From: Bacteroidales bacterium | GTDB lineage: Bacteria; Bacteroidota; Bacteroidia; Bacteroidales; UBA932 | Direction: 5' to 3' | NCBI GenBank assembly: GCA_017438975.1 | Contig: JAFRUH010000009.1 | Location: 1 to 64,000, forward strand | Length of the DNA stretch: 64,000 bases | Shown: piece by piece, positions 4,253 to 21,679 of the stretch | Position numbering within the stretch: position 1 is the stretch's first letter | How the letters are laid out: every line of letters begins with the position of its first letter | Made by a program: the position numbers and the translations under genes | The notes under the pieces: generated by a model | What the model saw: the letters and a program-made list of their open reading frames with translations, nothing else | Databases searched by the model: none | What the model was told of the DNA's origin: nothing

Positions 4253-4269
4253 TAGAAAAATAATATGTG

Positions 4270-5586
4270 ATGATAGAGAATCCGCCTACCCTAACACCCG
4301 AATTGCTGAATTCTGCAGTGGCTAAAATGAATAACCCACAGATTATGGATGAGGTCTCGGAGATTAACCGTAAATACCTTTATTGGAATGATGTCAAGTA
4401 TCGTAAAGTAGAAGGGGTGTCTCCGTTGGAGTTATGGGGGATTGTTCGCTTGTCTCGTTTGAGCTTATATGCCTTTATATGGACTAACCATAGGATTTGC
4501 GTGCCTATGACTAACCATATGCAGGAAATGTGTCACGATTTCGACATGAATTTTGGTGGCCTTTGGGGGACGGATTCAATTATTCCGAAAGAAGGGCGGG
4601 AAAAGTATCTTACTTCTTCCATTATGGAAGAAGCGATTGCCTCCAGTCAGATTGAAGGAGCCTCTACTACAAGAAAAGTCGCGAAAGATATGTTGAGGAG
4701 AAATCAATCTCCAAGAAACAGGGCAGAGCAAATGATTCATAATAATTATGTAGCGATACGATATATTACAGAAAATAAATCAGCGGATTTAACGGTTGAT
4801 ATTATTCTGCGACTTCATGAGATAATGACTGAAAATACGTTGGATAATGCGGAGGATGCTGGCCGTTTCCGGCTAAATAATGATGTTGTCGTTGCAGATA
4901 GCATTAGTGGAGAAGTGGTTCACACTCCTCCAGATTTTAGACAAATACCCGGTTTTATCGATTCGCTTTGCGCATTCGCAAATGCGAATGATAATAATGG
5001 CGGAAAGTACTTCCTTCACCCCATAATAAAAGCTTTGACCATTCATTTCCTAGTGGCGTATTATCATCCATTTGTCGATGGGAATGGTAGGACCGCACGA
5101 GCATTATTCTATTGGTATATGCTAAAAAGCGGTTATTGGCTTACCGAGTATCTGTCTATTTCTCGAATTATTTATAGAAGTAAAGTCTCCTACGAGAAAG
5201 CTTTTGAATATGCCGAACATGACGGGAATGATATAGGTTATTTTATTGTGTATAACCTTCGCGTGTTAAAACTCGCTTTCGAGGAACTAAAAAACTATAT
5301 TGAAACCAAGATCGCTCAAAAACAACGTTCTTACACCATACTTTCCATTGGTGGAATCAACCATAGGCAGGCAACGATATTGTCTATGTTTAGAGATAAC
5401 CCGACAATGGTATTAGCAGTTAATGATTTGGTTGCTAAGTTTGGTGTAAGTAAACCAACGGTCAATAAAGATATAGTACATTTGGTCGAACGTGGCTTAT
5501 TGAAGAAGATTCCCATTAATCAGAAACAAAGTAATTATGTCAAGGGGCCTGACTTTGATAGTGTTGTGAATAGTCAGGAAGAATAG
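4270..5586 (+). CDS. Fic domain protein with C-terminal winged helix
   Basis: The product is 438 residues. ATG at 4270 is preferred over the GTG directly before it. The N-terminal Fic_N-like region contains an inhibitory helix motif, SSQIEGAST, matching (S/T)xxxE(G/N). The core motif HPFVDGNGRTAR is an intact HPFx(D/E)GNGRxxR near residue 265, so the AMP-transfer activity should be present and held in check by the protein's own inhibitory helix (class II layout). The last ~80 residues form a winged helix (MVLAVNDLVAKFGVSKPTVN). Fic proteins of this shape modify a target hydroxyl with AMP; the winged helix suggests DNA binding, possibly of its own promoter. The gene is AT-rich compared with the rest of the window, and a small ORF follows closely. 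The target is unknown. Confidence 0.88.
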   Translation: MIENPPTLTPELLNSAVAKMNNPQIMDEVSEINRKYLYWNDVKYRKVEGVSPLELWGIVRLSRLSLYAFIWTNHRICVPMTNHMQEMCHDFDMNFGGLWGTDSIIPKEGREKYLTSSIMEEAIASSQIEGASTTRKVAKDMLRRNQSPRNRAEQMIHNNYVAIRYITENKSADLTVDIILRLHEIMTENTLDNAEDAGRFRLNNDVVVADSISGEVVHTPPDFRQIPGFIDSLCAFANANDNNGGKYFLHPIIKALTIHFLVAYYHPFVDGNGRTARALFYWYMLKSGYWLTEYLSISRIIYRSKVSYEKAFEYAEHDGNDIGYFIVYNLRVLKLAFEELKNYIETKIAQKQRSYTILSIGGINHRQATILSMFRDNPTMVLAVNDLVAKFGVSKPTVNKDIVHLVERGLLKKIPINQKQSNYVKGPDFDSVVNSQEE

Positions 5587-5958: not shown

Positions 5959-5995
5959 AATTGATTTCATTCTTGACGTCTGTCCGCTTAAAAAT

Positions 5996-6036
5996 GAGGG
6001 TGACCTGAAGTCTCGAGACCCGGTCACCCTCGTTTT
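5996..6036 (-). terminator. Bidirectional rho-independent terminator
   Basis: A perfect 10-bp stem (5996-6005 with 6022-6031) has a 16-base loop that itself contains TCTCGAGA. Read on the minus strand it is followed by ATTTTTA and would end the six-gene C25-like operon; on the plus strand it is followed by GTTTTC and would end the Fic transcript. Confidence 0.8.
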
Positions 6037-6052
6037 CGGTTATCCGAAGCCC

Positions 6053-8269
6053 TTACTGCAGCCGCAGGATGGTCTGGATAAGTTCTCCGCGGAGTTCTTC
6101 CGGCAGCGAGTCGCCGCCTTTTGACAGAATGTCCTGACAACCTGCGATGATTTCCGCCTTGCGGTAGGAGCATGTGAACCAGCCGAGGGCTTCGGCCATA
6201 ATGACGCGAAGTTCGGTGTCCTCTTCGGAATCGGCGATGACCGAGAGGAACTTCGGTATGCCGGCGTGGTGGTTGTTGTTGCGCACCAACCGCATACTGG
6301 ACTTGCGGTCCTCCCACGAGATGCTCTTGTCCGTGATCTTGTCAAGCATCCCGGCGTTGGATTTGGCCTGCCCCATGATCATCTTGGAGACCTGAGCGGA
6401 GACCGCGTCTGCGTCAAGACACGTCAGCGTCGGCCGTATCTCTTCCAGGGCGCTTTCAAATCCACTGGCATCCATCATCCTCATCGAGGTGGTGATATCA
6501 TAAGCGACACGGGCGTCTTCCGGATGCTCCAGAAAAGTGCGAAGCAGGGGAGCAGCCAGCGAAGGGTCCCCGCATTTGCCGGCGTAGATGGCGGCGTTCC
6601 GGCGGACGAGCTCATAGCGGTCGTCCAGTCCGAGGCGTATGCCGCTGATGAAGGCATCCCCGCCAGCTCGGCTGAGGAGTTTGAGGCACTCCATACGCAC
6701 GGTGCCGTAAGGACTGTTCCGCATATGCTCCAGCAGGAAGGGACCGTCGATGGCACTGGCGTCAAACAGCATTCTCAGCCCCACTGCCTGCAGCGCAGGG
6801 TCATCGGCAGCAAGAGTCTTGCGCCAGAAGGGGATTTTTTTCGCTTTGGCGGCAATCTGTCCGCGAAAACTCTGTCCGACAGGGTTGAAATGGAAGGTCG
6901 GGTCTCCGATGATGTGGCCTTCGAGCGTGGCTACAAGGCGGTTGTATTCACCGACACGGCAGCCCAGCGAAAGCAGTCCTATATTATCGTAGGTCCAGCG
7001 GTCTTGCAATACGTTGACCGTATTGCCTTGACAGGCGACGGTACGGCCTTCTCCGAAGATATAGTAGGCTGCTATGCTGCCAGGGCGGTGGAACGACCCG
7101 TTGTAACATGCATTGAAAACCACGAGGCGAGGCTGTGTGGCGATGCCCTTAAGGTCGTCAAGCGAGATGATGTTCTTGGCCGCCTCCTCCTTGGACTCCT
7201 TGGCCCTGGTCTTTCGAAGTTCCTCGTTGAAGTAATCGTCGAAGAACTTATCGGTCAGGTGGTACTCCGCCTTGAGCTTGGCGATTGCCTCGTCCTTGTC
7301 CATTTTCTTGCACAAAGAGCCAAGTTCCATGTATACTCCTCCGTAGCCCCATTTCAACTGATCTACCCATTCCTCGGTTGAGGAAGGAAGATCGCCGCCG
7401 CTGATGTGCTGCTTGTCGATGGAGCCGTGCTCGTTGAAAAAGAATGCATCCACCTCAGGCCTTTGCAACTGGTCGAACAGACGGTACTTCATATAGGTAT
7501 CCATCCTGAAGTCCAGTTGTTTGATGTTGTCCCTTCCGGGTTTCATGCCCGGGAAGCACTCTCGCAGCAAAATGCTTTCGTCGAGCCATGCATTGAGGCA
7601 GTCGGAAGTATATCCGTGACCTGCGAAAGTGACTATGTTATCCAGGTCCTGGGGGTTGTGTTTGGCTTCCACAACTTTGTCGAGGAACCGGGCGATGGCT
7701 TCGTATTTGTCGCCGCCGAGCATGGGCGGATACTTGATGCGGCCGGAATAGAATGCGGGCAGAAGTTTCTGCGGCGAGTCGTCCTTCAAACGGTAGTACC
7801 AGAAATCCTCATCCTTGTCGATGTACTCGAACTTCAGGTCGGGAGTGTCGTAGAAACGGTCTGAACCGACGCTGGATTCGGTTCGGTCGAAGGCCTTTTC
7901 ATCCATTTTGAAGGCCGTGGTAAAGTGCTGGGCATTGCGCACCATCACTACGGGAATGTCGCCTATGAGCACGATACCTTCGAGTTTCTTGGCCCGCTTC
8001 CGCAGGATGCCGAGCTGCTCGCGTACCTGGTCCGGCGACTGCCAGTCGGCACGCAGTATCCAGGTTGAGAGCCCGTCACCCTGGAGGGCGTCGCGATAGG
8101 CGAGCACCGACTCGGCCGTATGCTCATAGGTGATGTTGTCTATCACGATGGCAAAGTCGTTGCCGGCCTTTGCCGTAGGCTTGTCTACTGTGACCGTCTG
8201 CGCCTGCAGTTGGCAAAACGTTGAAAAAACGAATAACAGTGTGATTATCTTTTTCATAGGCTCTGTCAT
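6053..8269 (-). CDS. Caspase-fold (C25/gingipain-like) protein with HEAT-like repeats, paralogue 1
   Basis: The product is 738 residues with a type I signal peptide (FVFSTFCQLQAQ). Residues ~40-440 match the catalytic core of the clan CD family C25: VLIGDIPVVM near 100, SDRFYD near 136, a GHG at 217-219, a beta strand ending in EHG (His281) and VVFNACYNGSF (Cys388), then GDPTF. His281 with Cys388 is the likely dyad; His218 is an alternative. Residues ~470-738 are short helical repeats of the HEAT type (for example VRRNAAIYAGKCGDPSLAAP). No type IX sorting domain is seen, so it is probably periplasmic or held at the membrane by partners. The start ATG overlaps the stop of paralogue 2 as ATGA, so the two are translationally coupled. 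Last gene of the operon. Substrate unknown. Confidence 0.75.
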   Translation of the reverse strand: MTEPMKKIITLLFVFSTFCQLQAQTVTVDKPTAKAGNDFAIVIDNITYEHTAESVLAYRDALQGDGLSTWILRADWQSPDQVREQLGILRKRAKKLEGIVLIGDIPVVMVRNAQHFTTAFKMDEKAFDRTESSVGSDRFYDTPDLKFEYIDKDEDFWYYRLKDDSPQKLLPAFYSGRIKYPPMLGGDKYEAIARFLDKVVEAKHNPQDLDNIVTFAGHGYTSDCLNAWLDESILLRECFPGMKPGRDNIKQLDFRMDTYMKYRLFDQLQRPEVDAFFFNEHGSIDKQHISGGDLPSSTEEWVDQLKWGYGGVYMELGSLCKKMDKDEAIAKLKAEYHLTDKFFDDYFNEELRKTRAKESKEEAAKNIISLDDLKGIATQPRLVVFNACYNGSFHRPGSIAAYYIFGEGRTVACQGNTVNVLQDRWTYDNIGLLSLGCRVGEYNRLVATLEGHIIGDPTFHFNPVGQSFRGQIAAKAKKIPFWRKTLAADDPALQAVGLRMLFDASAIDGPFLLEHMRNSPYGTVRMECLKLLSRAGGDAFISGIRLGLDDRYELVRRNAAIYAGKCGDPSLAAPLLRTFLEHPEDARVAYDITTSMRMMDASGFESALEEIRPTLTCLDADAVSAQVSKMIMGQAKSNAGMLDKITDKSISWEDRKSSMRLVRNNNHHAGIPKFLSVIADSEEDTELRVIMAEALGWFTCSYRKAEIIAGCQDILSKGGDSLPEELRGELIQTILRLQ

Positions 8270-10389
8270 TTAACGGTACTGAGACGGACGATGGCACCGG
8301 TAAGCGCCGGTTTAAGCTCCTCGGGGCAGTCCGCGTTCGAGAGCATATCCTTGAAAGCGGAGATGATCGATGGCTTGGTATAGGACAGTTCGTACCAGGC
8401 GAGCGCCTCCACGATGAACGTGCGAAGCATCATGTCCTGGGCCGAATCCTTGACGATATCCAGCAATTGAGGAGTGATCTGGTGCAGGGGGTTGTTGCGG
8501 AGGCTCTGGACGTAGGCCTTGCGCCATCCGGGCTTCTCGTCGGGATCGGAAATACTCTTAATGCGTTCAGCGGCAGTATCCTTGGTGATGACGTCCAAGA
8601 GGGCCCGACGGTCTTTCTCCAGGTTATAATAATCCTTGCCTTCGAAATAGTTGTTTACGGCCGTCTCGGCCGCCGCGGCGTCGAAGCTCGGCAGGGCGTT
8701 CAGGACATTGAACACCACCCGAGCCGAGTTGCGGTCGCACACGTAGGCATCAATAAGGCAGGGAATGAACTCCTCGTCACCGCATTTGCCCATGCGGTTG
8801 ACGGCGATCCGCCGGATAAACTCAAAGCCGTCAGTGACGGCCGCTTTGAGTACGGCACGGTAATTCGCATCGTCCAGGCGCTCGAGCAGCGTCATGGCGT
8901 TGTAACGGACGATTGCATAAGGCGAAGTCTCGAATTTGTTGCGAAGCATGTCCGAGATCCCGGGGTAATCTGCCTCGAAGAGACGGATTGCGGCCATATT
9001 CTGGATTTCCGGATCGTCGTCATCCATCCTTGATGCCCAGAAGGCGGTATCCTTGTTCGTAAGGATAACGTTGACATCATCACCTGCTGCGGCAGGTGAG
9101 AAACGGAAGGTAGGGTCGCCTATGATGTGCGATTCCAGTATATTGACATGCTGTGCCCACAGGCCTACCCGCGCGCCGTGTCCCAGCAAGCCAAGCAGGT
9201 CGAAGGCAGACTTGTCCTGCAAAACGTTGACGCTGTTCGCGAATCCGACCAGGCACTTGCCGGAGCCCATGACGAATTTGCCGGCGATGAAATCATCGTG
9301 GCGGAAGTCGCCGTTGTAGCAGGCGTCGAAAACTACCATGCGGGCGTCGGGCGCGATGTTATCCACCTCCTGGAGTATGATGCCCGTCCGGAGGTCCTGC
9401 AGCGAGTCGGCCGCAATCCTTTCGGGACTGTTCCAGTTGTCGTACCAGGTACTTTCGAACCCCCAGCCTTCGGCTTGTTCACGTGCCTTGTCAAGGCTGC
9501 TGGAAGCCGTGCGGCGCAGGCGTGCAGCAACGACTTCTTCGGGACTCTCAGGCTTGACGTCGCCGCTCAGGTACATCCTATGCCAGTCGCCGTGCTCATG
9601 GAAGACCATAAAGTCCAGGTCGGGCCGGCGAAGCTCCTTGATAGCAATGTCCTTGATGTCCTCGTCCATGGAGTAGCGCAGGAATCGGGCGTTGTGACCG
9701 GTGAATATGCCGGGGAACTGTTCGTCCAGGATGTCCCTTTCCGCCCTCCAGGCAGTCAGGCATCCCGAGTAGGACCCGTGCCCCGTGAAGGAGCAGAATT
9801 CGTCGAAAGGATTGTTCTCCGCGTGTGCCGCCGCCGCTTTGAGCAGGTAGGCCGAAATCTGGGCGTAAGGGTCGCCATAGGAAGACTGTGCCTTGATGCG
9901 GCCGGTGTAGATGTCGCATTCAATATAGGGGAGAGACTCCGGAGCGAGTTCGTAGAAATGCATCAGCCCCTGCGGCGGAGCGTCGAGGTGATTGAAAGTC
10001 AGGTCGAAATCATCGTAGAAGCGGTCAGAAGGGACAGCAACTTCCTCGAGCGGATACTTTCGCTCGTCCATCTTGTAGGCGGAGGTCATATACTGGGCTT
10101 TCATCACCATGGGGATGGGGATGTCACCTATGAGGACGGCACCCTCGATTCCGTGCTTCTTGTACAGGTCGTGGAGGGTGGATCGGACCTCGTCCGGGTT
10201 CTGCCAGGCGGCGGTGCACAGATAAACGCAAAGGCCATCGTTTTCAATAGCCTTTGTGTACTGTGAAACCGCCTCCTTGCACCGAGTGCTGGTCACGTCA
10301 TCGATGATGAGCGCAACCCCTCCGCCCTGTGCCCGGCCGCACAGGCAGCCGGCACAGAACAGCAGAAAGGTCAGTATTCGTTTTTTCAT
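8266..10389 (-). CDS. Caspase-fold (C25/gingipain-like) protein with HEAT-like repeats, paralogue 2
   Basis: The product is 707 residues with a signal peptide ending near GRAQG. The layout matches its neighbours: VLIGDIPIPM (86-95), SDRFYDDF (121-128), FTGHGSYSG (201-209), MVFHEHGDW (261-269; His266), VVFDACYNGDF (352-362; Cys357), SVNVLQD and IIGDPTFRF. Residues ~440-707 are HEAT-like helical repeats (IRRIAVNRMGKCGDEEF). The His/Cys pair is intact, so peptidase activity is plausible, with substrate choice unknown. It lies 3 bp after the stop of the barrel gene and overlaps paralogue 1. Paralogues 1 and 2 share clear motif-level similarity but differ widely elsewhere, so the duplication is old. 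Confidence 0.75.
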   Translation of the reverse strand: MKKRILTFLLFCAGCLCGRAQGGGVALIIDDVTSTRCKEAVSQYTKAIENDGLCVYLCTAAWQNPDEVRSTLHDLYKKHGIEGAVLIGDIPIPMVMKAQYMTSAYKMDERKYPLEEVAVPSDRFYDDFDLTFNHLDAPPQGLMHFYELAPESLPYIECDIYTGRIKAQSSYGDPYAQISAYLLKAAAAHAENNPFDEFCSFTGHGSYSGCLTAWRAERDILDEQFPGIFTGHNARFLRYSMDEDIKDIAIKELRRPDLDFMVFHEHGDWHRMYLSGDVKPESPEEVVAARLRRTASSSLDKAREQAEGWGFESTWYDNWNSPERIAADSLQDLRTGIILQEVDNIAPDARMVVFDACYNGDFRHDDFIAGKFVMGSGKCLVGFANSVNVLQDKSAFDLLGLLGHGARVGLWAQHVNILESHIIGDPTFRFSPAAAGDDVNVILTNKDTAFWASRMDDDDPEIQNMAAIRLFEADYPGISDMLRNKFETSPYAIVRYNAMTLLERLDDANYRAVLKAAVTDGFEFIRRIAVNRMGKCGDEEFIPCLIDAYVCDRNSARVVFNVLNALPSFDAAAAETAVNNYFEGKDYYNLEKDRRALLDVITKDTAAERIKSISDPDEKPGWRKAYVQSLRNNPLHQITPQLLDIVKDSAQDMMLRTFIVEALAWYELSYTKPSIISAFKDMLSNADCPEELKPALTGAIVRLSTVK

Positions 10390-10392
10390 CTT

Positions 10393-11979
10393 TTAGAATG
10401 TCAAACCGATGGAGAATACAAGGAAGCTGCGCTTCTTGAATTGGTCACCTTTGGGGAAGAGGTGCTTGTAGGAAGCGCCGGCGAACAGGGACGAAGAGCC
10501 CTTTAATCCACTGAACACATACTTGAGATCCGCTCCGAAATTGGCGAAGTCGGTGGTGGCATACTGGAAGTCCAGCAAGGTGAACTCGGTGTACCCGGGA
10601 TCCTCGCTGCGGGTGCCGTTGTATTCGAGCTCAGCAGTGGTGGCGTGGCTATAGCCGCCGGAGACGTTTGCCACCATGGAACTGTTGCTGCCGAGGGCGA
10701 AGTTGCGGGTCATGTGGGCGCCGGCGTCAAAGTAGCCGATCTTCCTGTGGCTCTCGGGGACGTAGTAAACGAATGCGTCGTTGCAGAGGTTGCCCTCGAC
10801 GCCGAATTTCCATACGTAACCGTCGGCCCCGTCGGTCACCATATAATCGACTTTCAGGGTGTTCAGGGTGTTCTTGAAGTTGGAGCGTACAAACTTGGCG
10901 TCGGTAATCCATGTCTGAACCTCATATGTATTGTCATAGGTCTGGAAATACTCGATGCCGTCATAATCCTTGGACGAAGCCTTGAAATTCAGGAACAGCA
11001 GGTTGCCGTTATCGAACTTCTTCTCGGCCGCCAGGGTGATGTCGTAACGGTTGTCGCGAACGGTACCGGCCATCTGGGGTTTCTCGTAGCTGAACATGAC
11101 GTCCTCGACCTTATAGGTGTAATTGAAACCTATGACGGCCTTGAACTTGTCGCACTCGTATCCGAGCTGCGCACCGCCGCCGAGGGCGTTTGCATTATAT
11201 GCCCGCAGGGCGTGGATGGACGAGCCGAAGTTGGCCAGAACGCCGGCGTTGAAGAAACCGGGAGCTACCATATCCCAGGCCTTGGGGTCTACCAGGGAAT
11301 TGACCCTGGACCCGGATCCGTCTTCACGATAGCTGTAATACTGGAAATCGGCACCCAGGCTGAATCCTCCATAGATCTTCCACACAAGTGAGGGAAATAT
11401 CTCTACCTTTGACTGGAGAGTTTTGGGGCGAGGATCAATCTGTTTGGCCGCGATGGAATTGTCATAGTTGCCGGCGACACCGAGGATCAGGTGGTCCCAG
11501 AGCAGGGGAGTCGCGGCTTTGAACTTGATATTGTATTTCTGGTTCTTCCATTTGCTGTAGTTGTCATCCGCGAGGAAGAAAGGCATGTCCCTGAGGGGGT
11601 CGACCAGAGTGGCATTCCAGCGTGCGCCGGAAATGCTCTCGTTGGTATAGGTGAATTCTCCCCAGAAGTATGCGCCTCCGAGATTCTCATAGATACCGCC
11701 TCCTTTGGTGTGGAAGATGGCAGTCTTGTTGTCATCGCCGAGTTGGGCGTATTTGAAATCACCCTTGGTAAGGTCGTATTTGGCCTCGGCGAAGGCCTGG
11801 CGCTTGGGAGCATCGATGATTCCGCCGGCTGCGTTGTTGGTGTTGGACAGCCAGAGGCTCTCCATATTAGCCCGGTCGATGGTCACTGGGGTAACCTTGT
11901 CCTGCGCGAATGCGGCGGAGGACACTCCGAGTGCCGTGATGGCGAGTATTGCAATAATCTTTTTCATAATCTTTCGCAT
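10393..11979 (-). CDS. Outer-membrane beta-barrel protein (DUF6850-like)
   Basis: The product is 528 residues from ATG 11979 (MRKIMKKIIAILAITALGVS). A longer start at 12015 would overlap the upstream gene, and ATG at 11967 is a close alternative. A signal peptide ending AAFAQ is followed by a beta-rich protein ending in FSIGLTF, a typical C-terminal strand of outer-membrane barrels. Its place after a DUF4876-type lipoprotein and a TonB receptor fits the barrel family I know as DUF6850; that family name is from memory and not checked. Likely role: an outer-membrane partner or accessory channel for the receptor. Gaps of 3 bp downstream and 17 bp upstream show tight operon packing. Confidence 0.65.
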   Translation of the reverse strand: MRKIMKKIIAILAITALGVSSAAFAQDKVTPVTIDRANMESLWLSNTNNAAGGIIDAPKRQAFAEAKYDLTKGDFKYAQLGDDNKTAIFHTKGGGIYENLGGAYFWGEFTYTNESISGARWNATLVDPLRDMPFFLADDNYSKWKNQKYNIKFKAATPLLWDHLILGVAGNYDNSIAAKQIDPRPKTLQSKVEIFPSLVWKIYGGFSLGADFQYYSYREDGSGSRVNSLVDPKAWDMVAPGFFNAGVLANFGSSIHALRAYNANALGGGAQLGYECDKFKAVIGFNYTYKVEDVMFSYEKPQMAGTVRDNRYDITLAAEKKFDNGNLLFLNFKASSKDYDGIEYFQTYDNTYEVQTWITDAKFVRSNFKNTLNTLKVDYMVTDGADGYVWKFGVEGNLCNDAFVYYVPESHRKIGYFDAGAHMTRNFALGSNSSMVANVSGGYSHATTAELEYNGTRSEDPGYTEFTLLDFQYATTDFANFGADLKYVFSGLKGSSSLFAGASYKHLFPKGDQFKKRSFLVFSIGLTF

Positions 11980-11996
11980 TATAGACACTCTGTATA

Positions 11997-13274
11997 TTAA
12001 GGAATAGGTCTCCAATCAGGGGCCTTTTCGCCGTTGCGGCGCAGGACCGGGTGTTCGTTGACCTGGAAGTCGTCGGTGGAGTTGTTGGTATCCTGGAGAA
12101 TAGGAGTGCCGTCGGCTCTGGTGCCGATAACCTTCCTGGAGACGGTTTTGCCGCAGTAAGTTGCGTCCACGGAGGTGCCGCCGGCATCGATGAATCCGGG
12201 GACCCTCTTCATGTTGAAGGCGCCGGAATTGGTCAGCAATTCGACACCGTCGAGGATTGCGTCGGCGGGAATCTTGGCGTACTTGGCGGTCTTGTTGACC
12301 TCGTTCTGAACGTTGGGACCGGACTTGTTGAAATAGTCTGCATCAACGGTTTGGCCCTCGATCTTGAACAGGCAGAATGCGGCGCCGAACACGCCGGAAA
12401 GCCATTGCATCGCGTTCCACGAGGTGTAGTAGATAGGAGGCATATTCGCCACTTCGGGATTGTCACGTCCGGCGTTGGCTGTCCAGCATTCCCATTCGGC
12501 GATGGAGTTGTCGAAGGAGTTCTCATTGTTGGTGGTGTGGTCGCGGGCTTCCTGAGCCAGGATTACGGACTGTCCGGGTTTGAGAGGATATTCGTTGCCG
12601 CTTCCGGGGAACTGCCATACCCACATGCAATATGCATAGTTGTCGGTACCGTCCTCATCGGGCCAGACGGGCAGATTCGCCGTGGCGTTCTGGGGATAGA
12701 GCTGACCGAGGCAGACGCCGTCAAGATAGACTGTTTCGTCTCCGTTGTTGTAGATCTGGTAAGTCTGGTCGCGGAAATAGTAACTCTGGACACCACAATA
12801 GTATATCTCGCTGAATACCAGGGAGCCTACTTTGGCGGGGCGCACTGTCAGGTTGAATGCGGGATCTGCTTCGGCATCGGCCTTGGTGACGGTCTTGAAC
12901 AGGGAGATGCTGGGTACGTTACCGTTGATGAAATACTCGTATCCTTTGAATGTGGCATTACCGGAGATACCTATTGAATATACTCCGGGTTCTACGTCCA
13001 CCGTAGCGAAACAGTCAGTGCCGGTCTCGGTCTCAAACACCTGGTTGGTCGTTATGTTGGTAAAGGTGACCTTGACACCGGCAGTGGAGAAGTTGGGGTC
13101 AGGAGTTACAGATCCGCCCTTGGGGATGAATCCGGTAGCCGCATTGACCTTATAAGAAACCGTAATGGGCTCCACGATGGGTACATCCTGCACCTCTTTC
13201 ATCATCTTTATGCAAGATGACAAAGCGGCGATCGCGAGGACAAGTACCGATATTTTTGCAAATATTTTTTTCAT
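11997..13274 (-). CDS. DUF4876-type surface lipoprotein
   Basis: The product is 425 residues with a lipoprotein signal (MKKIFAKISVLVLAIAALSS followed by Cys21). Residues ~35-140 look like an immunoglobulin-like or carboxypeptidase-regulatory beta domain. Residues ~150-425 contain FSEIYYCG, QIYNNGDETVYLDG and YNGD-like turns typical of lamin-tail/DUF4876 proteins (SEIxY ... YIEIYNNSDE). In Bacteroidota these lipoproteins sit beside a TonB-dependent receptor and are thought to capture ligand at the cell surface. Here the gene is 12 bp after the receptor gene. Ligand unknown; the domain assignment is from sequence feel, not a search. Confidence 0.7.
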   Translation of the reverse strand: MKKIFAKISVLVLAIAALSSCIKMMKEVQDVPIVEPITVSYKVNAATGFIPKGGSVTPDPNFSTAGVKVTFTNITTNQVFETETGTDCFATVDVEPGVYSIGISGNATFKGYEYFINGNVPSISLFKTVTKADAEADPAFNLTVRPAKVGSLVFSEIYYCGVQSYYFRDQTYQIYNNGDETVYLDGVCLGQLYPQNATANLPVWPDEDGTDNYAYCMWVWQFPGSGNEYPLKPGQSVILAQEARDHTTNNENSFDNSIAEWECWTANAGRDNPEVANMPPIYYTSWNAMQWLSGVFGAAFCLFKIEGQTVDADYFNKSGPNVQNEVNKTAKYAKIPADAILDGVELLTNSGAFNMKRVPGFIDAGGTSVDATYCGKTVSRKVIGTRADGTPILQDTNNSTDDFQVNEHPVLRRNGEKAPDWRPIP

Positions 13275-13286
13275 AATGCGGTGCTT

Positions 13287-16148
13287 TTAGAAGATTTTTG
13301 CGGTCAACTGGAGACCGAAGAAGAAGGTTTTCGCATTGACACGATCGTAAGTGCCCGGATATTTCTTGAGGGGTTGCAGAGGGGTGGAACGGAACATATT
13401 GTTCACAAAGAATGAAACGCTGAACCGGTCGAACTGTTTCGTGACGTTGGTGTTGATACAGAGAGCCGGCTTGTAGGCAGGTTCGATTTCCCGACGGTTG
13501 GAAGCAATCGCTCCATTGGCCTCGTTGCGAAGGATGGGCAGCCATTTGGCATACTCGTCGGAAGCGGGATCGGCAATCCAGGTTCTATTGAAGTCGTGAA
13601 TCTTGCCGTCTTCAATGCTCAGGTATTTGACAGGGATGTCATCATCTTCGCCGTACTCCTCCCAATCCGTGTAGCGCCAGTTGACATTGGCGGTCATCGA
13701 GATAACAAGTCCCAGGGAAGGGATGTTGTGGATCGCGATGAGGTTGGTGATGAGATTGCGGTAGCGGGATACTCCGCTGGATATTCTGGACTCATAGATG
13801 CCGAGGTCATAGCCGCCGTCGCTGCCGTGGGTGTTATAGAATGTATATCCGTTGTTCCATGAGGCACGGTCGTAATACTGCCCGTTCAGCACGAAGGATG
13901 TGCGGATCGCGTTGATACGGCCGAAATCGATTTCGAATTCCACACCCTTGTTGTCAAATGAAACGTTGTTGCCGGGCTTGGTGAAGGACAGGATAAAGTT
14001 CTTGGAATCCTTCGGCGAAAGGGTCGGCCATGTCGTTCCGTCTTCGGGATAAGCGCCCGCCTGGTATGTGTCATACTTGACGAAACCGTAGCTGTCCAGG
14101 GTGCGACTGAAGCTGTAGCCATTGTTGCAGCGGTCCCTGAAACCGGTCACTGATACTTTGACCTGACCGAGTTTGAGGTCGAATCCGACCTCCTGTTTGG
14201 CCTGCCTGGCCAATTCCAGCTCAGGATTGCTGCCGTCATAGACATGGGTCGTGATGACATCGAACTTCTGGGCGTCGGGGATGTTTGCCACGGCATTGTT
14301 GGAGAAGTTCTCCATGTCGAAGAACGCCTTGTCCGGATAAACATAAGCAATTCCGGGAGTCTTGACGTTGACACCGTATGCACCGCGTACGCTCAGCACG
14401 TCGGGGATAAGCTCATAGGACGCATTGACCCTGGGGGTAACGACACCCTTGGCTACATCCAGTACCTTGTCATAACGCACACCGGCGACGATTTCGAGCT
14501 GGCGTCCAAGGATCTTGGCCCTCATCGTCTCTTCGGCGAAAACGCCGAATCTGTTGAGGAAAGGAATATCCTTGTAGGCCCTTTCCCTCTGGGTGGCGAA
14601 CAGGTAGGAAACATTTCTGGGCGGAGGGTTATTCTGGTCGAAAACCTTACCCTTGCCGACGTTGCCGTCGTTATTCCATTCTCCACCGACGATGATGCGG
14701 TGGTTTGTCCTGCCGATGTTGCCGGCGAAGTTGGCGACCGTCTTGGCAAAGGTGTTGAGTTCCTTGCCAAAGACATTGTACTCATACCAGTAGGATCCGG
14801 GGATGAACCAGGACCTGTATCCGGCAAGTTCGTCGGGGAACGAGGTGATCTCTGCTCCGTTGCTGTCATAGATCCTCTTCCCGGCAGCGCTTGTGAGCGT
14901 AGAACCGTCAACCCTCGACGTGGAGTAAGAGAAGGTAAAAGCTCCCGTCGCAAAGTTCTTTTCGTAGCTCAACCGGTCGGTGTAGTTGAAGGAGGCGTTA
15001 TATTTGATGTTCTTGAACCATCCCTTGTTGATGTCCAGGGTTCCGCGGGTGGTCAGACGCACTCCGAGGTCACGGCTGTTGCTGGTCTGGAAATCGTTTT
15101 CATCGTCCGGGTTCGGTTCACCCTTGTCCTTGGTCCAGGTGAAGCTGGCCGAGGTTGTGGAGTTGAGTTTACCGAAGGTGTTGGAGTAGCTCAGGCGGGC
15201 GGTCGCCCTCTGGTAGTAGTCGTAGCTCTCGCGTGGGTCCTGCACTGAATAGGCATAGTCGGCACCGTAGTTGATGAAACCTTTCTTCCCACCCAGGCCG
15301 ACGCCCTGGGTGACACCGAGGGAGTAAACGTTGGGGTTCGTATTGAAACGGACGGTCATAGGCTCACGGCCAGCCTTGGCATTAATGATGACGGTACCGG
15401 CGGTAGCGTCGCCGTATTCAACGGATGCTACACCACGGATGACTTCGATGGATTCGATGTTGTCGGTGGTTATGGTACGGAGGTCGATACCGGAGGAAGG
15501 ACCTGTCGAACCGGCGACGACGTTGCCAGCGCCCATAGCTGTGGTCATCGTGTTGAGGTTGGCGGCATTGGAGATGGGCGCACCGTCCATGATGATGGAG
15601 GTGCCTTGGGACTGGCCGCCGCGGATAGACAGGGTCTTCGCGCCCTGAAGGTCGGGTTTGAAAGTCTCGCTGGTAATGTCGGCACCGGGGAGCAGGGCCA
15701 TCACGTCGATAAGAGAACTTGCCTGCATGTGCTCGATAGCGGTGCGGCTGATCTTGGATGCCGTAGCCGCCCCGGCCTTGGACACTTCGGCGGTGACGGT
15801 CACCTGGTCCAGATGGAAGTCGGCGACGTTCATGCTGAAGTCCATCTGGCGCTTGGAGGCGCCGATGTTGACTTTGATGGAGACGGTCTCGTAACCGAGG
15901 CACTGGACCGTAACTTCGTGCTCTGCAGGCAAGATGTGGTCCAGAACATAATTACCGTCAACGTCAGAAACGGTGGCAATTCCCAATGCGGGGATTGACA
16001 CGACGGCGTAGGGGATGCCCTGGGAGATATCCGCGGATTCGCGGACCTTTCCCGCAAGGGAGCCTGTCGCCTTGCCCTGGCCGAATGCCGCGATGGACAT
16101 CAGCAGTGTTGCAAGTACGGCTGCGCCTGTAAATAACTTTTTTGTCAT
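13287..16148 (-). CDS. TonB-dependent outer-membrane receptor
   Basis: The product is 953 residues. A signal peptide (LATLLMSIAAFGQ) is followed by a carboxypeptidase-regulatory-like domain (~30-110; GIPYAVVSIPALGIATVSDV), a plug domain (~130-260; LSIRGGQSQGTSIIMDG, then IESIEVIRGVASVEYGDATA) and a 22-stranded barrel ending FGLQLTAKIF. It lacks the SusC hallmark and has no SusD neighbour, so it belongs to the classical receptor group rather than a glycan locus. Import of its ligand needs TonB-ExbBD, which are not in the window. The neighbours (DUF4876 lipoprotein, extra barrel, three peptidase-like proteins) suggest uptake of a peptide, a protein-bound cofactor or a metal complex, but the sequence alone does not decide. 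Confidence 0.88.
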   Translation of the reverse strand: MTKKLFTGAAVLATLLMSIAAFGQGKATGSLAGKVRESADISQGIPYAVVSIPALGIATVSDVDGNYVLDHILPAEHEVTVQCLGYETVSIKVNIGASKRQMDFSMNVADFHLDQVTVTAEVSKAGAATASKISRTAIEHMQASSLIDVMALLPGADITSETFKPDLQGAKTLSIRGGQSQGTSIIMDGAPISNAANLNTMTTAMGAGNVVAGSTGPSSGIDLRTITTDNIESIEVIRGVASVEYGDATAGTVIINAKAGREPMTVRFNTNPNVYSLGVTQGVGLGGKKGFINYGADYAYSVQDPRESYDYYQRATARLSYSNTFGKLNSTTSASFTWTKDKGEPNPDDENDFQTSNSRDLGVRLTTRGTLDINKGWFKNIKYNASFNYTDRLSYEKNFATGAFTFSYSTSRVDGSTLTSAAGKRIYDSNGAEITSFPDELAGYRSWFIPGSYWYEYNVFGKELNTFAKTVANFAGNIGRTNHRIIVGGEWNNDGNVGKGKVFDQNNPPPRNVSYLFATQRERAYKDIPFLNRFGVFAEETMRAKILGRQLEIVAGVRYDKVLDVAKGVVTPRVNASYELIPDVLSVRGAYGVNVKTPGIAYVYPDKAFFDMENFSNNAVANIPDAQKFDVITTHVYDGSNPELELARQAKQEVGFDLKLGQVKVSVTGFRDRCNNGYSFSRTLDSYGFVKYDTYQAGAYPEDGTTWPTLSPKDSKNFILSFTKPGNNVSFDNKGVEFEIDFGRINAIRTSFVLNGQYYDRASWNNGYTFYNTHGSDGGYDLGIYESRISSGVSRYRNLITNLIAIHNIPSLGLVISMTANVNWRYTDWEEYGEDDDIPVKYLSIEDGKIHDFNRTWIADPASDEYAKWLPILRNEANGAIASNRREIEPAYKPALCINTNVTKQFDRFSVSFFVNNMFRSTPLQPLKKYPGTYDRVNAKTFFFGLQLTAKIF

Positions 16149-16177
16149 AACGTTTTGGGTTAAAAAATATAGAAATA

Positions 16178-18313
16178 CTATTCTGACTTGATCCTTGCGA
16201 CGGTTTTATTAAGTTCGGCCTTCAGGGGCCCGGATGTCACCGTTCCAGAGAGAGCGGTGCAGCGCTCCATCACTTCGTCGCGTTTGCATGAGAAATTGTA
16301 CCAGCCCAGCACCTCGGCGGCGGTAACCCGCAGGCCTTCGTCGGCGTTTTCGTCTTCCAGGAGAAGGAAGATGGCCGGAAGCGATTTGACCGAGCATCTG
16401 TTCCTTTCGGTCTTAATGAGGTTGCGGGCCTGCTTGACTGTCAGGACGCCTTTCCCCAGCGAGGCGTATTCTGCCCTGGAGACGCTATCCGCGCGCACAA
16501 GGGAACTGGCGAAGGTCCTGGCGGCCTCCTCTCCCCTCCAATAGGGGCGTTTGGCAAATTCGGCCAGCACATCTGAGGGCTCATATCCTTCCAGGGCGTC
16601 CTTGATGTGGAACACCTCACGGATGGTGCAGTTCGGATCCTTATACCTCTCTACGAGAATGGGCATCAGTTCAGGGGCAAGGTGCTTGGCGGCAATCTTG
16701 GCCCCGAGACGGCGCGTAAGTTCGTAACTGTCGACCAAGGCAGTCCGTATGGCTCCGGTCAGTGAGGCATCGCGTCTGAAGCACAGCAGGTTGAAGGCCT
16801 CGAGCCTTACGATGGCAGAAGCGTCCTCCCGCTGTATCTTGAGCAGGGCGTCGGAAGAAATCTTGCCGGCTTTGTACAGGTTTTTGAGAGAGAGGCACCG
16901 GAGTTCGGCGCTGTCGCTGTTCAGCAGTTTGCGCCATACCCTGGTATTACCGCCCTTCGTGCTGATCATATGGTCGATCATGCCGTTCCGACCGGATGAG
17001 GCAAATGCGAAGGTCGGATCGCCGAAGAGGTGATTCTCCAGTGTCATCTCACCTTTTGCCCAGTTGCCGGCGCAGACCCCGAGCGCCAGCAGACCGCATT
17101 GTTCGTCCGGCCAGATGTCCTGCAGTGTATTGACGCTGTTGGCCCTCACCGCCATCGTCCCTCCGCCGGGGTGGAAGATATAGTGTGCGGCCAGATAGTC
17201 CTTATGGATGAATGCACCGTTGAAACAGGCGTCCAGCATCACCACAGCAGCCTGCGGGCAGTGGGCATCGATGTCGGCAAGGTGGATATCCACCGATTCC
17301 GCATAGATGCTATCCTGTTCCACCATCGCCGGATCGTTGGCGTCGTCAAGCCATGCCGCCGGCACGCCGAAACGGCTCATGAAATACTGCCTGCTGGCCT
17401 TGGGGTCCTTTGCATCCCGGATTTTTCCGCGGAAATAGCGCCTCGCCTGCTCGATCCATCCGTCGGGAGAACTGACGTAGGGAGAGCCGTTCATATACTG
17501 TAGATCCGGATTCCCGTGATGATGCAGCAGGGCCAGGTCCAGATCCACGTCATCAAGGGCGGCGAGCAGCCTCGGGCCGATGAAACGTTCAAAGTCATGG
17601 TTGAGGTACTCGAGTTTGGCGGAAGGCTCCATAAGGAAAGGGAAGTGCTCCCGAAGGGCTTGCGCCTCGTCGATTCGAGCGTGCATGGAATTGGAATTGT
17701 AGCCATGTCCGGAGAAGTACAGCACCTTGTCCATGGCTTGGGCACCGTTGAGGTGCTTTTCTGCAGCACGGAGGAGGAAATCGGCAATGGCAGCATATTT
17801 ATCGGGGCCTTCCGGTGCCTTGATGCGGGCCGTATAGATATCACAGGATACTCTCTGGTCGCCGTTGCCGGTCAGCGAATAATAATACAACAGGCTGTCG
17901 CTCTCATCCCTTTTGATAAACTCGAAGTCAAGCCCGAAATCGTCGTAAAATCTGTCCGAAGGGACGCTCGAACGCTGCCAGGGCTGGCTCTGGTCCATCT
18001 TGAAAGCTGTGCAGAGGTGCTGAGCGTCACGAATCATGGGGATCGGGATGTCTCCGATGAGCACCGCTCCCTCCAGGCGTCCGTTCCTGTAAAGTCTCTG
18101 CAGTTCGGCACGGAGTGAGTCTGGCACGCCCCAGCGGTCGATCAGCAGCACTCCCTTCTTCCATTTACTGTCAATGGCTTTGACATAGCTGTCCACGGCA
18201 TCGGAAATGCGCTCATAACATACAGGATCGACGATAACCGCTACTTCGGAGCGGCGGGCACACGACGCCAAAAACAAAAGCCCGCTTAAAACAATCAGAA
18301 ACAGCCTTCTCAT
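16178..18313 (-). CDS. Caspase-fold (C25/gingipain-like) lipoprotein with HEAT-like repeats, paralogue 3
   Basis: The product is 711 residues from ATG 18313, chosen because it gives a clean lipoprotein signal (MRRLFLIVLSGLLFLAS followed by Cys18). Core motifs are VLIGDIPIPM, SDRFYDDF, YFSGHGYNS (His203), LALLHHHGN (His266), VVMLDACFNGAF (Cys363), SVNTLQD and GDPTFAF. The C-terminal third is HEAT-like helical repeats (TRRLGAKIAAKHLAPELMP). Unlike paralogues 1 and 2 it is lipidated, so the set would include one membrane-anchored and two soluble members. It is the first gene of the operon, behind a promoter at 18335-18365 and 29 bp before the receptor gene. Confidence 0.75.
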   Translation of the reverse strand: MRRLFLIVLSGLLFLASCARRSEVAVIVDPVCYERISDAVDSYVKAIDSKWKKGVLLIDRWGVPDSLRAELQRLYRNGRLEGAVLIGDIPIPMIRDAQHLCTAFKMDQSQPWQRSSVPSDRFYDDFGLDFEFIKRDESDSLLYYYSLTGNGDQRVSCDIYTARIKAPEGPDKYAAIADFLLRAAEKHLNGAQAMDKVLYFSGHGYNSNSMHARIDEAQALREHFPFLMEPSAKLEYLNHDFERFIGPRLLAALDDVDLDLALLHHHGNPDLQYMNGSPYVSSPDGWIEQARRYFRGKIRDAKDPKASRQYFMSRFGVPAAWLDDANDPAMVEQDSIYAESVDIHLADIDAHCPQAAVVMLDACFNGAFIHKDYLAAHYIFHPGGGTMAVRANSVNTLQDIWPDEQCGLLALGVCAGNWAKGEMTLENHLFGDPTFAFASSGRNGMIDHMISTKGGNTRVWRKLLNSDSAELRCLSLKNLYKAGKISSDALLKIQREDASAIVRLEAFNLLCFRRDASLTGAIRTALVDSYELTRRLGAKIAAKHLAPELMPILVERYKDPNCTIREVFHIKDALEGYEPSDVLAEFAKRPYWRGEEAARTFASSLVRADSVSRAEYASLGKGVLTVKQARNLIKTERNRCSVKSLPAIFLLLEDENADEGLRVTAAEVLGWYNFSCKRDEVMERCTALSGTVTSGPLKAELNKTVARIKSE

Positions 18314-18437: not shown

Positions 18438-19312
18438 TTATTCTCCAAGCTTGCCAGACATCCATTCCAAGTCTTTACGCATCACATCGTAACTAAGGAT
18501 GAATTTGTCAGGATAATTTGCCAAGAGATAATCGTAGTCGAACTGAAGTTCTTCTGCCAGTTTTACCGCTGCCTGCCGGTCTTCTGAAACAAGAGCCGTA
18601 AACTTGTCACGGGCCGCATTGTACGATGTTTTGCCCTGCCCTGCAGCCATATTTGATGAGTATATATCTGCCAATGAAGCCAGGACCTTTCTGTCTTTTG
18701 CTTTAGGGCTGAAGCGCTTGATTGCCTTTGTCAGGGCCTTCTGCTCTTCATAAGAGGCCGGTGCATTCATATAGTCGGCAATCGTAGAAAGGGGCAGATG
18801 ATTCAACCTGTTGTCACGCATAGGATTTGACATCATTCCGTACAGCTCCCGGCAAAGGTCTGCATCCCTTCCCGTCAAAGGACCGAGGTACAATGTATTG
18901 TAAAAGTCGTTAACCGGGTAGTTGTCCCAAAGGATGATCCGATGCTTCACAACGGACTTGTACTTCCTTGCATCGGAAGCACTTATTGTCGTGCTCACCA
19001 CGCTCTCACCTGTCCAGAAAACGAAAACATCCGGGTCATTCTTCTTCAGATCATCGTATAAACGATTTACAAAGTGAAAATGGCCTGCCGCAATTTCCGC
19101 CTGCCCTTCCAGTTCCAGATCATCCAAGGCCAGATAGAACCATTTCACGCCCAGGCTTTGGAACCATCTGTACTTTTCAAAAAGAACGGAATAATCTTCT
19201 TCGTTTTTGACGGACAGGGGGTGCCCCGGATTTCGAAGCCTTGTTCCTTTGGCGAACAGGCATAGGAACAAAGTACCGCACAAAGCCACAAAGCAATTGC
19301 ACATTTCTTCAT
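18438..19312 (-). pseudogene. Truncated, frameshifted GH84-like beta-N-acetylglucosaminidase
   Basis: Reading leftward, ATG 19312 opens a good lipoprotein signal (MKKCAIALWLCAVLCSYACS) that runs out of frame after ~30 codons. A second frame, open from about 19304 to the stop at 18438, continues as a GH84 catalytic segment: PGHPLSVKNEEDY, LGVKWFYLALDDLE (the DD pair is the catalytic Asp-Asp of GH84) and LWDNYPVNDFYNTLYLGPLT. The N-terminal GH20b-like domain and the first part of the barrel, some 200 residues in known GH84 enzymes, are missing, and the signal and catalytic parts lie in different frames. A deletion plus frameshift near the C-run at 19221-19225 explains this. It is probably inactive. 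Confidence 0.7.
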
Positions 19313-19427
19313 AAAAACAAAATCCCTATAGTCAAAGTAAGAAAAATCAATCGAGAGAACTTGAATTATTCAATGAAGTCACTTGTTCTTGTTTTTCCGC
19401 TTTCCGCTGTCGAAAAGGAATTATTCG

Positions 19428-19435
19428 TATATTTG
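19428..19435 (+). promoter_or_regulatory. -7 element of the phosphatase-peptidase gene
   Basis: TATATTTG matches TAnnTTTG 12 bases before ATG 19448. It rules out the longer upstream frame (from 19241) as the real start. No clear -33 TTTG. Confidence 0.55.
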
Positions 19436-19447
19436 AAAAGAAATTCC

Positions 19448-21679
19448 ATGAGTATGAAAAGAGTATACGCCCTGTTGCTGCTTGCGGTACTGACGGCTCC
19501 GATGGCTGCCCAGACCCGGATCAAGCCTTACCTGGAGGCCAAGGACCTTCCGGATGCCACTTTTTTCCTGCCGCCCCCGCCGGCGGAGGATTCGCCCCTT
19601 TTCGAGGCGGACAAGGCCATCCATGCACACGCACGGGACTATATGCGGACGGGGCCGAGGGCTCTTCGCGCCAGGAGGGAGGGAACCATCGACATTGACA
19701 CCATGGCTGCTCTTTTCAGCGGCGCCTTCGGGAGGGAACTCTCCGGGGAAGCCACTCCGAAGACGCTCAACCTGCTCCGTCGGAGCGTCGTGACCATCCG
19801 CCTGGCGGCCACGGCCCCCAAGAAGGCCTATATGCGGAAGCGTCCCTATGTCCTGTATCATGAAAAGACGCTCATCCCGGAGGATGAGGAGGTGGAGCGC
19901 AATACGGGGTCCTATCCCTCCGGCCACTCAATCCGGGGGTGGGGGATGGCCCTTGTCCTTGCAGCGCTTAATCCGGAGCGCCAGGATACCCTGCTCCGTG
20001 CCGGTTATGAATGGGGGCAGAGCCGTGTCATCGCGGGTTATCACTGGCAGAGCGATGTCGAGGCCTCGCGCCTTCTCGCCGCAGCGGCTTTCTGCCGTCT
20101 GCAGGAAAGTGAGGAGTTCCGGAGGGACTTCGCCGCCGCAAAAGATGAACTTTCGGCACCGAGGGTGTCCATATCCGATGACGATATCCTGCTCCGGAAC
20201 TGGATCCGCACCCTGTCTTCGGACGATTTCGGAGGCCGCAAGCCCATGACTGCATACGAGGACAAGACGGTCTCCTACCTGGCCGGAGAACTGGAAGCGC
20301 TCGGCCTTGAACCCGCTTTCGACGGCAGCTGGTATCAACCCTTCGAGATGATTGCCGTCACGGCGAAGCCGGAAGGCGGAAGGTTCATCGTCAAGGGAAA
20401 GAAGAAGACCCAACTGGACTATCCGGACGACATGGTGGTCTGGACCGCCCGCGCTGTGGACAGGGTAAGCATCCCCAAAGCGGAATTTGTTTTCTGCGGT
20501 TTCGGCATCCATGCCCCTGAGTTCGGATGGGACGATTACGCGGGGGTCGATGTAAAGGGAAAGATCGTCATTGCGATGGTCAATGACCCCGGCTATTACG
20601 ACGCCTCGCTTTTCCGGGGCAGGAACATGACCTACTACGGACGGTGGATCTATAAGTTCGAGGAGGCCCGCCGCCAGGGAGCCGCCGGCTGTCTCGTACT
20701 GCACAACACGGAAGCGGCCAGCTATGGCTGGCACGTCTGCGTCAACGGCCACCTGGACGGCAACCTGGCCCTATACGACCCGGACACGCGCAACGCCGAC
20801 GAGCTCGCCGTCAAAGGATGGCTCCATGAAGATGGTGCCCGGAAACTCTTCAAGGCCGCCGGAATGGATATGGACACGGCCGTCTCGGCCGCCAAAAAGC
20901 CCGGATTCAGGAGTTTCCCCCTCAAGGTAAAGGGCGATGTGGACATGGCCGTTACCTATGACATCCGGAAGACGCGGAATGTCGTGGGCATCCTCCGGGG
21001 AACGGACATCGGGGACGAGGCTGTCGTGATGAACGCCCACTGGGACCATCTCGGCACGGGCGCTCCCGATGAAACCGGGGACGCGATCTATAACGGTGCG
21101 GCGGACAATGCGTCCGGGATGGCCGGGGCCCTGCTTGCCGCGAAGAAGTTCAAGCAGCTGCCCTCTGCGCCGCGCCGTTCGGTCCTTTTCCTCTTCCCTT
21201 CATCCGAGGAGAGCGGACTTTTCGGCTCCGAATATTACTGCGCCCACCCGGCGATTCCCATGGAAAAGACAGTGGCCTGCCTCAATTTCGAGAGCATCGG
21301 CCCTGCGGAACTGACCCATGACGTGGTCATCCTCGGGGGAGAGGGGAGCGGTCTTGAGACCTTCTATGAAGCGGCTGCTGCGGCGCAGGGAAGGTACATT
21401 TTCTATGACGACGACAATTCGGACGGCTGGTTCTACCGCTCTGACCATTTCAATTTCGTGAAGAAGGGCGTTCCCGCCGTGGTGATGGAGAACGGCCGCC
21501 ATCCGGTGGACCTGTCCCGTCCCAACCGCTATCCCATGCAGGAGTGGTACCACAAGCCGTCGGATGAGTACCGGGATGACTGGGACCTCAGCGGCACCGT
21601 CGCCAATGTAAACCTTGTCTTCAGCGTGGGAGTCTCCCTGTCCAATGCTAAAACTGGTTCAGGAAGTGCCGGAAAATAG
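19448..21679 (+). CDS. Fusion of class A acid phosphatase (PAP2) and M28 zinc peptidase
   Basis: The product is 743 residues with a signal peptide ending APMAAQT. Residues ~25-235 are a complete class A non-specific acid phosphatase: KKAYMRKRP, GSYPSGHS (154-161; His160) and SRVIAGYHWQSD. Residues ~240-743 are an M28 peptidase with an inserted PA domain: HWDH (His531), GAADNASG (Asp553, bridging zinc) and SSEESG (Glu587/588). All metal ligands and phosphatase residues seem intact, so both halves should work. The protein is exported, probably periplasmic. The phosphatase could release phosphate from nucleotides or phospho-substrates while the peptidase removes N-terminal residues. I do not know this fusion as a standard architecture. 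The 3' end overlaps the convergent rhomboid gene by 32 bp. Confidence 0.85.
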   Translation: MSMKRVYALLLLAVLTAPMAAQTRIKPYLEAKDLPDATFFLPPPPAEDSPLFEADKAIHAHARDYMRTGPRALRARREGTIDIDTMAALFSGAFGRELSGEATPKTLNLLRRSVVTIRLAATAPKKAYMRKRPYVLYHEKTLIPEDEEVERNTGSYPSGHSIRGWGMALVLAALNPERQDTLLRAGYEWGQSRVIAGYHWQSDVEASRLLAAAAFCRLQESEEFRRDFAAAKDELSAPRVSISDDDILLRNWIRTLSSDDFGGRKPMTAYEDKTVSYLAGELEALGLEPAFDGSWYQPFEMIAVTAKPEGGRFIVKGKKKTQLDYPDDMVVWTARAVDRVSIPKAEFVFCGFGIHAPEFGWDDYAGVDVKGKIVIAMVNDPGYYDASLFRGRNMTYYGRWIYKFEEARRQGAAGCLVLHNTEAASYGWHVCVNGHLDGNLALYDPDTRNADELAVKGWLHEDGARKLFKAAGMDMDTAVSAAKKPGFRSFPLKVKGDVDMAVTYDIRKTRNVVGILRGTDIGDEAVVMNAHWDHLGTGAPDETGDAIYNGAADNASGMAGALLAAKKFKQLPSAPRRSVLFLFPSSEESGLFGSEYYCAHPAIPMEKTVACLNFESIGPAELTHDVVILGGEGSGLETFYEAAAAAQGRYIFYDDDNSDGWFYRSDHFNFVKKGVPAVVMENGRHPVDLSRPNRYPMQEWYHKPSDEYRDDWDLSGTVANVNLVFSVGVSLSNAKTGSGSAGK

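Follow-up and report, generated by a model that had tools for sequence, protein, structure and literature searches.

A gingipain-fold protease operon around a TonB-dependent receptor in Bacteroidales, a candidate system for processing an imported polypeptide

Why should one operon place three protease-like genes around a single outer-membrane receptor? The question is raised by positions 6,053 to 18,313 of a 64,000-nucleotide stretch of a Bacteroidales genome (hereafter the window; assembly GCA_017438975.1, contig JAFRUH010000009.1, positions 1 to 64,000), in which an initial annotation had noticed three proteins resembling C25 peptidases, the family of the gingipains, each fused to HEAT-like repeats (here C25a, C25b and C25c, or C25-HEAT proteins), beside a TonB-dependent receptor, a DUF4876 lipoprotein and a further barrel protein, now assigned to DUF6850. 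We find that this arrangement is real, widespread and undescribed in the literature searched, and that it is near the Fus-type protein import of Proteobacteria in principle, but with another protease family, three paralogues and two extra protein families. We consider it fairly probable that the operon encodes a protease-associated import system, in which an imported polypeptide is processed in the periplasm.

The open reading frame (ORF) calls confirm six minus-strand genes at the positions first given for them. C25a (18313-16178) is followed by the receptor (16148-13287), the DUF4876 lipoprotein (13274-11997), the DUF6850 protein (11979-10393), C25b (10389-8266) and C25c (8269-6053); for C25a and DUF6850 we use an inner ATG as the start, where the ORF list has an upstream TTG. 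The gaps along the operon are 29, 12, 17 and 3 nucleotides (nt), and C25b and C25c overlap by 4 nt. On the same strand a Bacteroides-type promoter, TTTG-N19-TACCTTTA, lies at 18365-18335, 21 nt 5' of the first ATG, and is one of five matches in the window, against 0.32 expected, to a pattern whose consensus we take to be that of this promoter type. A Rho-independent terminator (5985-6052, minus strand) stands after the last stop codon with a GC-rich stem followed by ATTTTT, the stem 3' of position 6053 having a free energy of -30.2 kcal/mol (z -3.9). The description of six closely packed genes with a single promoter and a single terminator thus holds. A generic terminator scan did not have this terminator among its sites, whose number was no higher than in shuffles, and an E. 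coli-type promoter scan inside the operon gave no excess of sites over shuffles.

Are the C25-like proteins peptidases? The Peptidase_C25 profile of Pfam reaches C25a at E 0.16, short of its gathering score, has no match in C25b or C25c, and at E up to 0.1 finds 9 of 64 family members (best 1.6e-7); as the match is weak by sequence, the peptidase reading needed evidence from the fold. Such evidence comes from C25b, the one of the three that was modelled, whose predicted structure has a gingipain/caspase-like alpha/beta fold and then a HEAT solenoid, as the initial annotation had expected. In C25b a signal peptide precedes the protease domain (residues ~23-437, with His266 and Cys357) and the solenoid (~437-707); in C25a, behind a lipoprotein signal with a lipobox by pattern, and in C25c, behind a signal peptide, the protease domain is placed by alignment with C25b and HEAT repeats follow. 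The His and the Cys, a candidate catalytic pair, are invariant in all 237 family members. That the three are distant paralogues with His/Cys motifs is likewise confirmed, since C25a shares 31% identity with C25b and 32% with C25c and the motifs (HHG or EHG; DACFNG, DACYNG or NACYNG) are all found, and so is the fusion to HEAT-like repeats, the HEAT_2 profile matching C25a at E 3e-5 (below Pfam's cut-off), C25b at 1e-9 and C25c at 1e-6. A protease-domain profile of 64 rows (63 listed rows minus L025 and L137, plus the three window proteins) did not reach the gingipains in the PDB, where its sole match, NlpI at E 0.2, is taken as chance. No function was drawn from a structural alignment of the HEAT part, whose rows were largely designed repeat proteins. 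Compared with the gingipains RgpB and Kgp, the C25-HEAT proteins would thus have the caspase-like fold in common, going by the C25b model, whereas HEAT repeats stand after the protease domain where gingipains have an Ig-like domain, the median His-Cys spacing is 101 as against 33, and both the prodomain and the sorting tail of the type IX secretion system (T9SS) are missing.

This last difference bears on where the proteins would act. In the N-termini shown (up to seven per class) the signal peptide is followed at once by the protease domain, no prodomain of the gingipain kind being seen, and at most 11 residues follow the end of the profile in any of the 237 proteins, which leaves no room for such a prodomain or for a type IX sorting tail. 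No T9SS C-terminal sorting domain was matched in the window proteins, as previously noted for this locus. No SprA (type IX translocon) turned up in the window genome, which is 98.5% complete, nor in six close relatives with C25-HEAT genes, one of which is 78% complete. As the proteins carry only a signal peptide and lack a T9SS tail, and as a search of this genome did not find SprA, the simplest reading is that they are periplasmic and that cutting more likely takes place there, during or after import; the earlier proposal of processing before or during import would survive in its second half, the first having become unlikely. Secretion as a T9SS gingipain was judged unlikely for this genome on the same grounds, despite its one match to the TIGR04183 sorting tail (E 1.5e-6). 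The suggestion of one lipidated and two soluble peptidases fits the window and fails for the family, in which the lipobox pattern flags 11 of 237 proteins, several looking like ordinary signal peptides, and lipidation as a family feature is therefore rejected.

Do these genes belong together? A scan of 84,980 species, one genome per species, found 504 stretches encoding a relative. Among the best 80 of the 504, some of which share genomes with loci fetched later, the receptor, DUF4876, DUF6850 and C25-HEAT genes stand together in 71, and each of the remaining nine loci starts no more than 254 nt from the end of its contig. The 71 loci mostly hold three C25-HEAT ORFs (49 loci) or two (19), with four in 2 and one in 1. 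In 392 genomes drawn evenly from the order of the window, DUF4876 was present in 79, DUF6850 in 77 and C25-HEAT in 18, a number that may be low since at most two candidates per genome were scored. In 17 of these 18 the C25-HEAT genes lie near DUF4876 and DUF6850 on one contig (in G167 with genes between), the exception being a C25-HEAT fragment on another contig of G312. By these counts the receptor, DUF4876 and DUF6850 form a core with a broader distribution than the proteases, which are in turn seldom found without that core. The initial annotation had been prepared to give up its proposal for lack of a caspase-like fold or of regular linkage among these genes; the fold is predicted for C25b, and the linkage is found.

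The paralogues moreover group by gene position: the first downstream gene ("down1", with C25b) clusters together, the second ("down2", with C25c) does so in two groups on a midpoint-rooted drawing, and a third cluster ("up", with C25a) unites the upstream gene with the third downstream one and with some genes present as single copies. In-frame fusions of neighbouring paralogues occur in L097 (a+b) and L095 (b+c), no signal peptide being visible where the two parts meet, and L098, cut by its contig, and L099 have junctions like that of L097. Such fusions argue that the proteins work side by side and lend indirect support to the idea that they form a complex.

The partners are clear by profile, as had been claimed for the receptor and DUF4876 (Pfam Plug E 7e-16, DUF4876 E 2e-44, DUF6850 E 4e-78). 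The receptor has an N-terminal CarboxypepD_reg domain before its plug and, as in SusCD/RagAB, a lipoprotein partner; this partner is DUF4876, no SusD/RagB match being found by Pfam among the six operon proteins. DUF4876 has a solved relative, 4q1z, annotated merely as a putative lipoprotein, and the lipobox pattern is present in 160 of 183 DUF4876 ORFs, duplicates included. For DUF6850 no solved relative was found by sequence; as its nearly invariant C-terminal Phe fits an outer-membrane barrel, it is a probable protein of this kind. The window genome has a second, distant DUF6850 gene (G000:C10:58067-59380), and DUF4876 matches once.

What, then, would the proteases cut? In Pectobacterium, ferredoxin is described as entering intact through a TonB receptor and being degraded in the periplasm, and a similar route is proposed for YddB/PqqL of E. 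coli, where PqqL is described as a periplasmic, iron-regulated protease (excerpt of PMC6793856), and FusC is proposed to capture ferredoxin at the periplasmic side of FusA, ratcheting it in (excerpt of PMC6071955). Like FusA/FusC and YddB/PqqL, the window operon clusters a TonB-dependent receptor gene with genes for signal-peptide-bearing proteases, loci related to its core use M16 peptidases of the PqqL/FusC type, and iron regulation is reported on both sides (PMC6793856 and PMC10434189, in excerpt). Unlike them, it has a C25-like protease that carries HEAT repeats and is mostly present as two or three paralogues, and it adds DUF4876 and DUF6850. At E 1e-3 its receptor matches just ferric enterobactin receptors in the PDB.

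We analysed the companions of the core in 101 DUF4876 loci, having left out 4 of 105 fetched loci that the DUF4876 profile missed. Their same-strand run includes C25-HEAT genes in 16, M16 in 10 (one with C25) and S46 in 5 (one with M16). M16 genes lie within 8 kb in 17 loci, against 2.3 expected from genome density (per-genome M16 totals and the fetched loci); by Pfam there is none in the window operon. Three M16 proteins, those of L115, L189 and L118 (the last from the genus of the window), align nearly end to end with PqqL and with the PDB entries 6b03, 6b05 and 6brs, which we take to be FusC. The E values are 4e-47 to 5e-72 against full-length structures, and the top match is 9ldy, named just M16 peptidase. 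In a quick FastTree of the receptors the clade with the window (13 rows) holds 9 C25, 2 M16 and 2 core loci, and the next larger clade (21 rows) further takes in every one of the 4 S46 loci along with 1 M16, 1 core and 2 ABC loci. As the receptors appear to exchange peptidases, we suggest that the ligand is a polypeptide.

Based on these data we propose a sequence of events, which we infer as follows. The TonB-dependent receptor, with the DUF4876 lipoprotein and the DUF6850 barrel, would carry a polypeptide ligand across the outer membrane, a small protein or large peptide that probably bears iron or haem. Three non-interchangeable gingipain-fold proteases would wait in the periplasm, one of them lipid-anchored in the window genome; their HEAT solenoids would capture the emerging chain, the His-Cys domains would cut it and the cargo would be released. 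Solenoids of the HEAT kind often bind peptides, and a protein that joins solenoid and protease domain could both capture or ratchet a chain and cut it. If this is true, the Fus-type principle extends to Bacteroidales with a different protease fold, a function is given to three groups (DUF4876, DUF6850 and C25-HEAT), and it becomes testable how Bacteroidales could get iron from proteins without type IX secretion. A bolder version, which we regard as speculative, is that Bacteroidota own a widespread protein-import-and-digest machine, with three co-evolved gingipain-fold proteases whose HEAT solenoids work as a ratchet on the trans side and draw the polypeptide through the TonB receptor as it is cut in an ordered way, and that exchange among C25-HEAT, PqqL/FusC-type M16 and S46 makes a receptor with any periplasmic peptidase a general architecture for feeding on proteins.

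The link to iron comes from published expression data, which were available in excerpt. Without iron, BT1933-39 rises 3.5-7.4-fold and PG1019-22 20.8-214.5-fold, and the operon of figure 1C rises in three species (PMC10434189). BT1933-39 is annotated as an IS256 transposase, hypothetical proteins, a HEAT repeat protein, a DUF4876 protein and a TonB receptor (PMC10434189), and the gene order of B. xylanisolvens (L051) fits BT1939 to BT1934, so that likely orthologues of our gene set stand here. In P. gingivalis a DUF4876 gene shifts with haemin in the same way as HmuY does, the log fold changes being -5.42 and -6.11 (PMC10470040, whose excerpt does not put the direction into words), and PG_1019, PG_1020 and the HmuY gene are together among changed genes (PMC10101095). 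The PG1019-22 / BT1938-39 transport locus is thus like the window in having DUF4876 and a TonB receptor, with a HEAT repeat protein in BT1933-39; its account gives expression data and a locus figure, with the proteases unrecognised and no mechanism in the excerpt of PMC10434189. Neither the C25-HEAT proteases nor a mechanism for the operon was found described in the open-licence PMC papers searched. No common iron-box motif was worked out from the upstream regions (77 non-redundant operons extracted, 45 displayed). We give about an even chance to iron as the purpose of processing an imported polypeptide.

How far do other explanations account for the same facts? The proteases might work outside the cell in the manner of gingipains, stripping proteins of their haem or iron, with the receptor importing the freed cofactor only. 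The gingipain fold of the C25b model, the lipobox of C25a (some Bacteroidota lipoproteins face outward) and SprA in 13 of the 22 C25-HEAT genomes examined fit such a scheme, as would the iron regulation of the likely orthologues; we nevertheless think it improbable, as the proteins have neither T9SS tail nor gingipain-kind prodomain, SprA was not found in the window genome, and the residues after the lipobox Cys of C25a, ARRSEV, have no acidic cluster such as belongs to what we take to be the surface-export consensus. Equally improbable, in our judgement, is that the receptor, DUF4876 or DUF6850 are themselves the substrates, processed or turned over by the proteases (maturation, plug removal or quality control), and that the imported ligand is left alone. 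Tight gene linkage would fit this just as well, and so would the 39 of 101 DUF4876 loci whose same-strand run has just the core or unlabelled genes, but PqqL/FusC-type M16 and S46 peptidases beside related receptors better suit ligand processing, and three conserved paralogues are many for a single maturation step. A polypeptide may also be imported for a purpose other than iron, such as feeding on peptides, gaining a different metal or cofactor, or breaking down antibacterial peptides that have been taken up. This overlaps with periplasmic processing as we propose it, so that the odds of the two are not exclusive, and we hold it to be doubtful, though less so than the previous two: the S46 companions suggest peptide breakdown, against which stand the induction of related operons by iron depletion in three species (PMC10434189, in excerpt) and the HmuY-like C-terminus, below Pfam's cut-off, of five of six papain-like companions described below, itself a weak lead.

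Several observations weigh against periplasmic processing of an imported polypeptide. The 39 loci with no labelled companion, and 34 of the 101 with an ABC/PepSY module in the same-strand run, mean that proteolysis is not essential to the core. Of the 17 nearby M16 genes, seven do not belong to the same-strand run and three of these seven come from a single genus, so that these events are not all independent, and the M16 protein of L134, one of four tested, is of another type, its best match being unlike PqqL/FusC. In the receptor tree, 6 of 15 C25-bearing receptors and the M16-bearing receptors of the window's own genus (L118, L119) fall outside the neighbourhood of the window. Stray C25-HEAT copies exist as well, in G310 at a distance of ~16 kb from the core, in G167 and G312 on a separate contig. 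At E 1e-3 the receptor finds ferric enterobactin receptors alone in the PDB, and SprA is present in 13 of the 22 C25-HEAT genomes. BT1933-39 is identified with this gene set by its annotation and gene order, not by sequence, and no HEAT protein is named at the strongly iron-regulated PG1019-22 in the excerpt of PMC10434189.

The operon is also probably mobile and useful. Of 60 genomes sampled around and including B. xylanisolvens, 5 carry it, and stretches of 12-13 kb are 99.92-99.97% identical among B. xylanisolvens, B. bouchesdurhonensis and Phocaeicola faecicola (L051, L053 and L054), spanning the whole operon in the latter two. Such near-identity between Bacteroides and Phocaeicola points to a probable recent transfer of the operon, as one unit, from genus to genus. 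Integrase- or transposase-like ORFs were seen by eye near these three operons, and the L051 receptor reads as two ORFs.

Other genes accompany the core or its proteases. L108 and 33 other DUF4876 loci carry beside the core parts of a module made up of a small lipoprotein, a PepSY membrane protein, an ABC ATPase, a likely permease and a DUF4857 protein, of which the small lipoprotein and the likely permease have no Pfam match. A papain-like companion was noticed by eye near the C25-HEAT genes of L066, L087, L095, L101 (on the opposite strand), L135 and L138, two of the six matching Pfam C1, at E 0.049. In the window itself, a GH84 (NAGidase) ORF lies just upstream of the operon (18438-19304, minus strand); its match falls into two stretches, the best of which spans positions 170-288 of the 295 in the profile, and it may be a truncated gene. 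Further out, the plus strand encodes an M28 peptidase domain fused to a PAP2 phosphatase domain (19373-21679) and, on the other side of the operon, a Fic protein with helix-turn-helix matches at its C-terminus (4267-5586).
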